Shown: piece by piece, positions 47,215 to 50,558 of the stretch
How the letters are laid out: each line of letters starts with the position of its first letter
Position numbering within the stretch: position 1 is the first letter of the stretch
NCBI RefSeq assembly: GCF_011043735.1
Contig: NZ_JAAKGV010000012.1
Span: 1 to 64,000, forward strand
Length of the DNA stretch: 64,000 bases
Reading direction: 5' to 3'
From: Methylobacterium sp. DB0501
GTDB lineage: Bacteria; Pseudomonadota; Alphaproteobacteria; Rhizobiales; Beijerinckiaceae
The notes under the pieces: model-generated
The model's database searches: none
Told to the model about the DNA's origin: nothing
Seen by the model: only the letters and a program-made list of their open reading frames with translations
Position numbers and translations under genes: made by a program

Positions 47215-48180
47215 CTATACGGCAATCGCGCCCGCGCCGCGACGGGAGCCGGTCTCCTCGGGCTGCCCGCGGGGCAGCGTTGCGTGCGGCGCATGCTGGC
47301 GGAAGAACGCCGCCAGCTCGGCCAGCCCGTCCGCCCGCGGGTCGCTGGCGCGCCAGGCGAGCGCGATGGTTCGGCTCGGCCCGTCCGGCGCGAAGCGGCG
47401 GCAGATGGTGAGCCCGGCAGGATCCGGGCCCGGCGGGGCGGCGAGCGCCGGCAGCAGGGTGTAGCCGGCACCCGCCGCCACCATCGAGCGCAGGGTCTCG
47501 AGGCTGGTCGCGTGGCGCCCGCTCGCCGGACCGGCGCCGCAGGCCGCCACCGCCTGGTCGCGCAGGCAGTTGCCCTCGTCGAGGAGGAGCAGGTCGGGAC
47601 CGGCGAGGTCGCCGGGACGCGGCGGCTCGCCGCTGGCGAAGGCGTGCTCGGCCGGGCAGGCGAGCAGGAAGGGCTCGTCGAAGAGCGGCACGACCGTGAG
47701 CCCCGATTCGGGGATCGGCAGCGAGATCAAGGCCGCGTCGGTCCGCCCCTCGCGCAGGGCGTCGAGGATGTCGGCCGTGCGCCCCTCGCTCAAGGAGAGG
47801 GCGAGATGCGGGAAGGCCTGGCGCAGGCCGCGCAGGACCCGGGGGAACAGGTAGGGGCCGAGCGTCTGGATCGCCGCCAGGACGAGGCGGCCGCGCAGGC
47901 CCCGGCCGGCCCCCTCGCGGGCCAGCAGCAGCAGGGCCCGCGCCTCCGCCAGCACGGCGCGCGCCTGGCGCACCACCGCCTGGCCGCTCGGGGTGAGCAG
48001 CACCCGGCGGTTCGAGCGCTCGAACAGGGTGAGCCCCAGGGCTTCCTCCAGCTTGCGGACCTGGACGCTCAAGGTGGGCTGGCTCACGGCGCAGCGCTCG
48101 GCGGCACGGCCGAAATGGCCTTCTTCCGCGACCGCCACGACGTATTCGAGGTCCCGCAGGGACAGGCCGGAGACGTTCAT
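47215..48180 (-). CDS. oxyR: hydrogen-peroxide-inducible regulator OxyR (LysR family)
   Basis: 321 residues. The N-terminal winged helix is LRDLEYVVAVAEEGHFGRAA, then RCAVSQPTLSVQVRKLEE. The redox pair is in GNCLRDQAVAAC at about residues 205 and 214, the same nine-residue spacing and LRDQA context as Cys199/Cys208 of Escherichia coli OxyR; peroxide oxidises it to a disulfide. It is divergent from catalase with a 177-bp gap. An ATAG-N7-CTAT palindrome overlaps its own start codon, which predicts autorepression. Confidence 0.95.
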   Translation of the reverse strand: MNVSGLSLRDLEYVVAVAEEGHFGRAAERCAVSQPTLSVQVRKLEEALGLTLFERSNRRVLLTPSGQAVVRQARAVLAEARALLLLAREGAGRGLRGRLVLAAIQTLGPYLFPRVLRGLRQAFPHLALSLSEGRTADILDALREGRTDAALISLPIPESGLTVVPLFDEPFLLACPAEHAFASGEPPRPGDLAGPDLLLLDEGNCLRDQAVAACGAGPASGRHATSLETLRSMVAAGAGYTLLPALAAPPGPDPAGLTICRRFAPDGPSRTIALAWRASDPRADGLAELAAFFRQHAPHATLPRGQPEETGSRRGAGAIAV

Positions 48181-48193
48181 AGGCTGCGCCTAT
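48179..48193. promoter_or_regulatory. OxyR-type operator half-site overlapping the oxyR start codon
   Basis: ATAGGCTGCGCCTAT matches the OxyR element ATAG-N7-CTAT exactly and also the LysR T-N11-A pattern. It covers the last two bases of the oxyR ATG (read on the minus strand) and lies 165 bp before the catalase start. Seven bases further, TTCGCAACGATGCAT would be a much weaker second element at the expected helical spacing. Confidence 0.75.
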
Positions 48194-48357
48194 CACGAGC
48201 TTCGCAACGATGCATTTGTTTTTGGGTCACGCCGCGGTCATACGCTGGACCCAGACCAGTTCCAGGGTGTTGGCCCGTCGGCTGACACCCCATGTGAGCG
48301 GTCCCTCGCGCGGTATCCCGTCACGGCACGCCGCGCCTGCACGCCAGAGGAGTTTCC

Positions 48358-49947
48358 ATGAGCGACCAACGCCCGATCCTGACGACCCGCCAGGGCCATC
48401 CGGTCCGCGACAATCAGAGCATGCGCACGGTCGGGGAGCGGGGCCCGGCGACCCTCGAGAACTACCAGTTCATCGAGAAGATCACTCATTTCGACCGTGA
48501 GCGGATCCCCGAGCGCGTGGTGCACGCCCGCGGCGCCGGCGCCCACGGCTATTTCGAGGCCTATGGCACGATCGGCGACGAGCCGGCCTCCAAGTACACC
48601 CGCGCCCGCGTCCTCAACGAGACCGGCGTGAAGACGCCGATGTTCGTGCGCTTCTCGACCGTGGCCGGCGCCAAGGAGAGCCCCGAGACCGCCCGCGACC
48701 CGCGCGGCTTCGCGGTGAAGTTCAAGACCGTCGACGGCAACTGGGATCTCGTCGGCAACAACCTGAAGGTCTTCTTCATCCGGGACGCGATCAAGTTCCC
48801 GGACATGATCCACGCCTTCAAGCCCGACCCGGTGACCAACCGCCAGGAGGCCTGGCGCTTCTTCGACTTCGTGGCGGCGCACCCCGAGTCGATCCACATG
48901 GTGACCCACCTGAAGTCGCCGTGGGGCATCCCGGCCAACTATCGGGAGATGGAAGGCTCGGGCGTCAACACCTACAAGCTGGTCAACGACCAGGGCGTGG
49001 CGCATCTGTGCAAGTTCCACTGGATCCCGAAGCAGGGCGTCCGCAACCTGACCTCGGCCCAGGCGGCCGAGATCCAGGGGCGTGACGTCGGCCACGCGAC
49101 CAAGGACCTGTACGACAACATCGCGGCCGGCAACTTCCCCGAGTGGGAATTCGCGGTCCAGATCATGCCGGACGGCCCGAACGACCACCTGTCGTTCGAT
49201 CCGCTCGACGACACCAAGCTCTGGCCGGTGGACCAGTTCCCGCTTCTGCCCTGCGGCCGCATGGTCCTCGACCGCGTGCCGGACAACTTCTTCGCCGATG
49301 TCGAGCAATCGGCCTTCGGGACCGGCGTGCTCGTCGACGGGATCGACTTCTCGGACGACAAGATGCTCCAGGGGCGCACCCTGTCCTACTCGGATACCCA
49401 GCGCTACCGCGTCGGCCCGAACTACCTGCAGCTGCCGATCAACGCGCCGGCGCCGGGCGTGAAGACCGCCACCAACCAGCGCGACGGCCAGATGACGTTC
49501 TACGTCGACGGCGTCGGCGAGAACAAGCACATCAACTACGAGCCGAGCACCATCGGCCAGGGTCTGCGCGAGGCGCCGAAGCCCGCGAAGGAGTACCACC
49601 AGCCGGTCGAGGGCAAGCTCGGCCGCTACCAGGCCAGCCGCACCGAGGACGACTATACCCAGGCCGGCGTGCGCTACCGCTCCTTCGAGGAGTGGGAGCG
49701 TGAGGACCTGATCGCCAACCTCGTGGCCGACATGAAGGAATGCCCCGAGGCGATCCAGCTCCGGATGGTCTGGCACTTCTGGCACGCCGATGAGGATTAC
49801 GGTCGCCGCGTCGCCGAGGGCGCCGGCATCGACCTCGAGAAGGCCAAGGCCCTGCCGCCGCTGCCGGGCCGCGCCGCCCCGCACAAGCGCCTGGCCGCCG
49901 AGACCTACACCGACGGCACCCAGGCCCATAAGGTCGCGGCCGAGTAA
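48358..49947 (+). CDS. monofunctional heme catalase
   Basis: A 529-residue cytoplasmic catalase that converts hydrogen peroxide to water and oxygen. The distal active site [20 protein letters not shown] has the catalytic His at about residue 56; [11 protein letters not shown], the distal Asn region, and the proximal heme-ligand motif [17 protein letters not shown] with its Tyr follow. The length and the absence of a large C-terminal flavodoxin-like domain put it among small-subunit catalases. GAGGAG precedes the ATG. Divergent oxyR and its site indicate peroxide induction. A strong terminator follows. Confidence 0.96.
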
Positions 49948-49981
49948 GGCTGTAGTCGCAACGGCTTGAGTGAGTGACGAG

Positions 49982-50012
49982 CCCCGCCCGGAGCGATCCG
50001 GGCGGGGTTTTT
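49982..50012 (+). terminator. intrinsic terminator after catalase
   Basis: CCCCGCCCGG pairs with CCGGGCGGGG around AGCGAT, followed by five T. It lies 35 bp after the catalase stop. Confidence 0.9.
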
Positions 50013-50090
50013 ACGTGGGGGAAGGATGGCGGCGGAACCGTCGCGATGCGACCTTCGTTCGCGGTACGGTTGCGTGCCCGGATTCCCCGC

Positions 50091-50558
50091 ATGACCGCCG
50101 TCGCCTTCGACACCCTGAAGCTCGCCCGCACGCTGCGGGACAAGGCGACGCTGTCGCAGGACCAGGCAGAGGGCTTCGCCGAGGCAATCTCCGAGGCCGT
50201 GCAGGGCGACCTCACGACCAGGGCCGACTTGAAGTCGTCCGAGGCGGCATTGCGGCCCGATATCAAGGCAGTCGAGAAGGGCCTGCGCGCCGACATCGCG
50301 GCGGTTGAGACCGGCCTGCGTGCTGACATTGCCGCGGTCGAGACGAACTTGCGCGCTGAGCTTGCGGCTTTTCGTGCCGACAACAATGTCTTCGCTCACG
50401 ATTTGCGCGCGACTGAGGCGAACCTGCGCTTCGAATTGAAGGCACAGATCTCGGAGACGCGAGCCGAGGTCATCAAATGGATGGTCGGTGCGGTCGGCCT
50501 GCAGACCGTCGCCGTCGTTGGCGCGATGATCACCCTGGTTCGCATCCTGAAGCCCTGA
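50091..50558 (+). CDS. DUF1640-like coiled-coil membrane protein with hendecad repeats
   Basis: 155 residues. The start MTAVAFDTLKLARTLRDKAT, then QDQAEGFAEAISEA, resembles DUF1640 (CCDC90-like) proteins. Residues 60-92 are three 11-residue repeats (AVEKGLRADIA, AVETGLRADIA, AVETNLRAELA), followed by a further helical part and one C-terminal transmembrane segment (MVGAVGLQTVAVVGAMITLV). The topology, coiled coil then tail anchor, is that of mitochondrial MCUR1/CCDC90 relatives, which is only a family resemblance. Its codon use is a little less GC-rich than that of its neighbours. Function is unknown. Confidence 0.85.
   Translation: MTAVAFDTLKLARTLRDKATLSQDQAEGFAEAISEAVQGDLTTRADLKSSEAALRPDIKAVEKGLRADIAAVETGLRADIAAVETNLRAELAAFRADNNVFAHDLRATEANLRFELKAQISETRAEVIKWMVGAVGLQTVAVVGAMITLVRILKP
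50268..50366 (+). repeat. three 33-bp in-frame repeats (hendecads)
   Basis: Three consecutive 33-bp units encode AVEKGLRADIA, AVETGLRADIA and AVETNLRAELA. Amino-acid identity between the first two is 10 of 11, while the DNA differs at several third positions, so the repeat is old or kept by selection. Confidence 0.85.

Follow-up and report, generated by a model that had tools for sequence, protein, structure and literature searches.

A conserved palindrome on the oxyR start codon as the proposed anchor of a divergent oxyR-catalase operator in Methylobacterium

Introduction

In Methylobacterium sp. DB0501 an oxyR-like gene lies divergent from a catalase gene, and a palindrome of the ATAG-N7-CTAT type reaches into the first bases of the regulator gene. 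Which of the two genes would such a site control, and can a protein site that shares bases with a start codon serve both? A preliminary description of this DNA took the placement on the start codon strongly to favour autorepression of oxyR, and placed the catalase promoter on the opposite side. Here we follow up that single-sequence reading, starting from the window (the whole analysed stretch of 64,000 nucleotides, positions 1 to 64,000 of contig NZ_JAAKGV010000012.1) and extending the comparison across the genus and beyond. No paper on this site was found among the matches listed in the open-licence PMC literature.

Results

An OxyR-like regulator divergent from a catalase

The regulator combines a LysR HTH domain (PF00126, 81.5 bits) with a LysR substrate-binding domain (PF03466, 157.8 bits), and the solved structures that match it best are those of OxyR or peroxide activators, including the PDB OxyR chain 4x6g (E=4.2e-64). 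Its cysteine stretch aligns with GHCLHDQ....C of the peroxide-activator chain 6g1b, and both the cysteine pair, GNCLRDQ..AAC, and the motif SQPTLSVQ[VI]RKLE are found in 35/35 orthologues. The best NCBIfam family is the OxyR equivalog NF008361; because the score of 249.8 bits does not reach the cut-off of 329, we term the regulator OxyR-like and treat its function as putative. The next best LysR protein of the same genome is only 30% identical to it (E=5.3e-29). Downstream of the catalase gene, the product of an open reading frame at 49974-50558, a coiled-coil protein, scores narrowly above the Pfam CCDC90-like cut-off (34.3 vs 33.5). Coordinates of all features are collected in Table 1.

Table 1. 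Features of the oxyR-catalase region, in positions of the window
Feature	Position	Strand	Evidence and remarks
oxyR-like LysR regulator, 321 aa, cysteine pair CLRDQAVAAC	47215..48180	-	domain, family and structure-chain matches
Proposed OxyR anchor (recognition) element, ATAG-N7-CTAT	48179..48193	.	centre 48186, ~-65 from the inferred catalase start; 107/107 orthologues; E. coli comparison
Speculative oxyR -10, GATAGG, from the right arm of the palindrome	48189..48194	-	GATAG in 106/106; would give a leaderless mRNA or a very short leader
Invariant C flanking the right arm (CTATC)	48194	.	C in 106/106
Second element TTCG-N7-GCAT (T-N11-A), proposed site of a second OxyR dimer, directly next to the -35	48201..48215	.	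centre +22 bp, ~-43
Catalase -35 candidate, TTGTTT	48216..48221	+	variants of 106: TTGCCA 22, TTGCCT 20, TAGCCA 19, TTGTTT 15, TGGCCA 12
Catalase -10 candidate, CATACG	48239..48244	+	17 bp from the -35; commonest genus forms CATAAC, CATAAG, CATACC
Conserved block near the inferred catalase +1	48253..48266	.	here AGACCAGTTCCAGG; genus majority AGAACGGTTCCAGG
Monofunctional catalase, 529 aa	48358..49947	+	PF00199, 550.5 bits

A palindrome across the oxyR start codon

As the preliminary description had it, an exact ATAG-N7-CTAT palindrome, ATAGGCTGCGCCTAT, sits on the oxyR start codon (48180-48178 on the reverse strand), its left two bases being two of the three bases of the ATG, and the catalase ATG, at 48358, is indeed separated from oxyR by 177 bp. 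The window holds this one copy, against an expectation of 0.03 (the mean of 100 shuffles, three of which had one). Across the whole genome (7.58 Mb) the bare motif occurs at 5 places versus 9 for a reversed control pattern, and since this count shows no excess the bare motif alone is no evidence. A GC-extended motif with two mismatches allowed gave 138 forward matches versus 159 in the control and was likewise discarded as evidence. The evidence for the site is its register and its conservation, rather than the bare motif.

The four other exact copies in the genome (L001-L004) were examined as possible regulon members, with neighbouring open reading frames named by eye. The copy at L001:2411-2425, ATAGGCCACGCCTAT, has a LysR gene other than oxyR on one side and a Dabb-like open reading frame on the other and is perhaps that regulator's own site, and the copy at L002:2458-2472, ATAGGCGAGGCCTAT, also has GC-extended arms and lies near unrelated-looking open reading frames. 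The form ATAGGC-N3-GCCTAT is common to three of the five exact genomic copies. L002 to L004 were set aside as members of a peroxide regulon, the nearby open reading frames not being, by eye, peroxide genes.

Conservation across the genus

A search of 111 genomes of the genus identified an oxyR orthologue in 107, with identities of 73-100%; two of these orthologues are partial. Three genus members (G025, G033 and G109) hold an oxyR relative of 45-46% identity only; G025 gave no match to the catalase of the window and the other two gave matches of only 43-44%. In a further genome, 70% complete (G111), oxyR was not found and a 94% fragment of the window's catalase was present. The upstream stretch was fetched for all 107 orthologues, and every one (107/107) carries the exact palindrome in the same register on the ATG; loss of the palindrome among relatives, the outcome that would have counted against the site as first described, did not occur. 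In 106 of these loci a catalase start was found, the starts being projections from tblastn; the remaining locus (L178) was kept out of the set of 106 because no catalase was found beside its oxyR.

The conserved arms stand in variable surroundings. Among the 106 loci the N7 spacer takes 53 different forms, and pairwise identity averages 0.38 over 21 hand-picked columns that are under weak constraint. The loci are not independent, 101 distinct 100-mers being present among the 106. Coding, by the ATG and codon 2, is enough to explain the left columns through the AT of ATAG, and the last two bases of ATAG together with CTATC are invariant with no coding reason. The left mirror base of the invariant C at 48194 is also C in 106/106, as the complement of the G in ATG, so that the flank is not symmetric. 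A palindrome due to chance would agree with the five exact genomic copies, which are no more numerous than the control predicts, and is refuted by conservation, with 107/107 at one place against an identity of 0.38 at weakly constrained neighbouring columns; its probability is practically nil.

Conservation extends outward from the palindrome. Palindrome, second element, -35 and -10 align gap-free in the 35 loci of a first set, from which L048 and L054 were excluded (distant OxyR, catalase of 43-44% identity, no exact palindrome), and the length of the whole oxyR-catalase gap ranges from 123 to 205 bp among the 106 loci. Searching a named genome collection with the composite pattern returned 79 stretches, 77 titled Methylobacterium or Methylorubrum and two from metagenome-assembled genomes of Methylobacteriaceae (L086) and Beijerinckiaceae (L102). 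The palindrome is on the oxyR ATG in 79/79, next to a catalase in 78 and to KatG in one; because the pattern itself selected these stretches, they tell how far it extends and say nothing of how well it is conserved. In a draw of 149 genomes of the family, a similar composite pattern was found in 4/7 genomes of the genus and 0/142 of other genera, counting exact matches only, which misses G080 and G075, where the palindrome is accompanied by a changed second element (L166, L209). At greater distance, the palindrome was on the ATG in 0/24 OxyR-like loci of 36-45% identity (330 bases upstream examined, start codons uncurated), comprising 21 from other families of the order, for which A. tumefaciens was not fetched by name, and 3 genus non-orthologues; three of the 24 (L062, L064 and L068) have an exact palindrome elsewhere upstream. 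In the locus of G109 (L220), the exact palindrome is absent from the 1901 bases available.

A composite block in register with a candidate catalase promoter

The palindrome opens a nearly rigid block of ~90 bp that includes the second element, a candidate catalase -35, a 17-bp spacer and a -10 of the form CATAnn. The genus-wide order, outward from the ATG, is ATAG-N7-CTATC; N6; TTYG-N2-ACGATGCAT; -35; 17 bp; CATAnn; and a AGAACGGTTCCAGG-like block. The picture of a catalase promoter standing apart finds no support here: the candidate catalase -35/-10 keeps a nearly constant distance from the palindrome, which lies at about -65, and the case for catalase activation is therefore no weaker than that for autorepression.

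The second element, of genus form TTYG-N7-GCAT, has T-N11-A at the +22 offset in 106/106. It matches 4/8 consensus bases of ATAG/CTAT in each of the 106 (mean = maximum = 4), so that the second half is indeed degenerate, as had been described, and it is strongly conserved in the genus despite this half-match (column alignment; alignment of 40 sites). Its degeneracy had been called unusual for a tetrameric OxyR site, a judgement that does not hold for comparable operators: in Gammaproteobacteria, conservation is lowest in IR2, the middle repeat, for each of OxyR, IlvY and CynR (PMC5002191). An alternative 15-mer at +18 has an equal consensus count (mean 4.08/8) but T-N11-A in only 10/106. An IR3-like element was not found at +31, where the mean is 2.60/8 consensus bases and T-N11-A occurs in 26/106.

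The catalase -35 is poor, lacking the second T in 37/106; at activator-dependent promoters this T may be missing. CATA lies at the same column in 105/106 loci and is shifted by one base in L171. The form CATAnn suits the M. extorquens -10, which is reported to be without the conserved -7 T (PMC9320726). Placing the catalase +1 at 7 nt past the -10 puts it at ~48251, from which the anchor and the second element would be centred at -65 and -43.

In the conserved block beyond the -10, TTCCA begins at column 91 in 85/106 loci and at column 89 in 12/106; the block (48253-48266) could be an initially transcribed element or the site of another protein. Separately, ACGATGCATT at 48207-48216 is invariant (105-106/106 per column), beyond what the OxyR consensus requires, and may double as an oxyR promoter element or as another regulator's site. 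A model of the composite site built from 40 of the 107 sites gave one match in its own genome and no second copy, at E up to 10 with 150 of 2332 candidates scored.

Translation start and promoter of oxyR

The oxyR ATG looks truly coding, because codons 2-4 have nearly fixed second and variable third positions (residues mostly N, L/V and S/A). In 106/106 loci the palindrome itself supplies an in-frame TAG, located 12 nt upstream of the ATG, so that no earlier in-frame start is usable, and an alternative earlier start codon was discarded. Translation signals differ sharply between the two genes, with a Shine-Dalgarno 4-mer core before 5/106 oxyR versus 92/106 catalase genes. Mean duplex energies, computed with what we take to be the 16S tail, are -1.72 kcal/mol for oxyR, -7.24 for catalase and -3.32 for shuffled oxyR upstream sequence; duplexes below -5 kcal/mol occur in 7/106 oxyR genes, one of them at -11.6.

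With a Shine-Dalgarno core missing from most oxyR genes, the oxyR mRNA may lack a leader. Leaderless mRNAs, defined by a leader of 0-9 nt, make up 7% of the mRNAs of M. extorquens (PMC9320726), and a transcription start-site table exists for strain DM4 (same source). The right arm of the palindrome offers a speculative -10 (Table 1), although no good -35 was seen 17 bp upstream of GATAG and TG at -15/-14 is present in 44/106. A convincing oxyR promoter was not found. An EcfG-type promoter, suggested by eye from the conserved GTTCC/GGAAC, was dropped because the spacing looked too short. We regard as a tentative possibility, rather doubtful on balance, that one arm of the palindrome runs into the oxyR start codon while the other forms the oxyR -10 of a leaderless mRNA.

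The same inverted repeat might instead act in RNA, as a hairpin in the oxyR mRNA that masks the AUG. In this genome it could form a perfect 6-bp stem (-6.8 kcal/mol), and over the 106 loci the 22-mers gain a mean of 1.15 kcal/mol in folding energy relative to shuffles, a gain for which the kept ATAG/CTAT arms alone might suffice. The outermost inner pair has a slight Watson-Crick excess (40 vs 33.0 expected); against this, the next inner pairs have none (65 vs 64.9 and 11 vs 13.1 expected), only 39/106 loci reach -3 kcal/mol, and the stem would be absent from a leaderless mRNA. With these covariation and folding tests the hairpin is disfavoured, and we hold it to be very improbable.

A catalase-peroxidase behind the same block

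In Methylobacterium sp. Leaf108 (L107, the same locus as G097/L178), the gene divergent from oxyR encodes the catalase-peroxidase KatG (L107:4194-6491; PRK15061, 1098.5 bits vs a cut-off of 981), and the catalase of the window has no match in this genome at E<=1e-20. The block is nevertheless retained, with palindrome, second element, TGGCCA, 17 bp, CATAAG and TTCCAGG. That the promoter appears to have outlasted a change of peroxide-removing enzyme is evidence for control linked to peroxide, from a single case.

This bears on the narrower reading in which OxyR at the palindrome would regulate oxyR alone and catalase would be controlled from another site. Such a reading draws on the overlap with the oxyR ATG in 107/107, on the repression by E. 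coli OxyR of its own gene (PMC5002191) and on a mention in the PMC11975290 text of oxidation-dependent OxyR autoregulation in A. tumefaciens. For a site with no duty other than autorepression, however, a near-fixed register with the second element and the catalase -35/-10 would be needless, and the block persists in the species that has KatG in this place instead of catalase. We consider this reading unlikely.

Discussion

In this work we propose that the divergent oxyR and catalase genes share a bipartite OxyR operator, anchored at the palindrome, which would activate catalase and limit oxyR; from conservation and geometry, we judge this proposal to be probable. Each regulatory step in it, from DNA binding and the redox switch to activation and autorepression, is inferred from sequence, as are the two start sites. 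Under this proposal an OxyR dimer would occupy 48179-48193, and upon peroxide stress oxidised OxyR would also engage 48201-48215, beside the -35. With both elements occupied, oxidised OxyR would recruit RNA polymerase to the catalase promoter and activate it. On the anchor, OxyR would obstruct oxyR expression, because the anchor covers the first bases of the gene, and would thereby keep the sensor low and self-limited.

The two arms of this proposal differ in their footing. Activation of catalase is the most likely function, with geometry and conservation both pointing to it. Autorepression of oxyR is plausible from position, and since no convincing oxyR promoter was found, it is position that has to carry it. 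The earlier view that placement strongly favours autorepression thus survives in part: the palindrome is where a bound protein should obstruct oxyR, and autorepression is not favoured over control of catalase.

The closest known arrangement is E. coli oxyR-oxyS, which also has ATAG-N7-CTAT-type elements with centres 22 bp apart and the regulator gene on the other side. Its repeats are placed at -66, -44 and -35 in PMC5002191. In our consensus matching on NC_000913, counted from the oxyS start as annotated, they fall at -67 and -45, each with one mismatch, and at -36, with two, and three weaker matches lie further up. The predicted -65/-43 in Methylobacterium agrees with the E. coli -66/-44 of that paper or the -67/-45 of our matching. 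Judged by the oxyR-oxyS pattern, the locus has the element near -65 and the +22 element next to the -35, and it shows no third repeat: with T-N11-A in 106/106 at +22 and 26/106 at +31, the first two repeats are spaced as in E. coli and the third, which E. coli has, is not seen. The systems also differ in that E. coli IR1 ends 22 positions upstream of oxyR, counted from the A of its ATG, whereas here the repeat overlaps the ATG, and in that the E. coli target is a small RNA, whereas here it is catalase and, once, KatG.

T-N11-A is generic to the LysR family, and the site could in principle belong to another LysR-type regulator, such as LsrB, with OxyR secondary. In A. tumefaciens, LsrB binds the oxyR-katG intergenic region (PMC11975290), and in the genome studied here the L001 copy has the same type of motif beside a different LysR gene. 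The palindrome, on the other hand, accompanies this particular oxyR in 107/107 orthologues, and its geometry equals that of E. coli oxyR-oxyS, so we give this alternative little chance. Under the OxyR operator that we prefer, the rhizobial oxyR-katG (katA) bidirectional promoter of A. tumefaciens offers a further parallel, with oxyR divergent from an OxyR-activated peroxide remover (PMC11975290); the target there is KatG, whereas here it is catalase.

For the oxyR side, a partial parallel is provided by acuR of Rhodobacter sphaeroides, an alphaproteobacterial regulator gene that likewise lacks a Shine-Dalgarno sequence and has an inverted-repeat operator overlapping its promoter (PMC3017554). 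The acuR mRNA starts at the AUG, its 5' end having been mapped experimentally (PMC3017554). AcuR is a TetR-family repressor of its own operon, in contrast to the divergent LysR-family arrangement in Methylobacterium, where a leaderless state is suspected only. If the suggested oxyR -10 is real, one 15-bp word would serve both as operator and as promoter element, and would also be the transcription start and a part of the start codon. Mutating the palindrome could then hardly separate catalase activation from sensor autorepression, and these shared roles would explain its genus-wide invariance.

In most respects the site would be a standard divergent operator of the LysR family, its uncommon features being the overlap with the start codon and the invariance across the genus. 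What began as a guess from a single sequence is now a putative module of peroxide regulation in methylotrophic bacteria that spans the genus and can be tested. The analysis names bases whose change should affect catalase activation and oxyR expression, among which the CTAT arm is free of the start codon. With a proposed protein site, a start codon and possibly a promoter on the same bases, the locus may allow selection on all of them to be read jointly.
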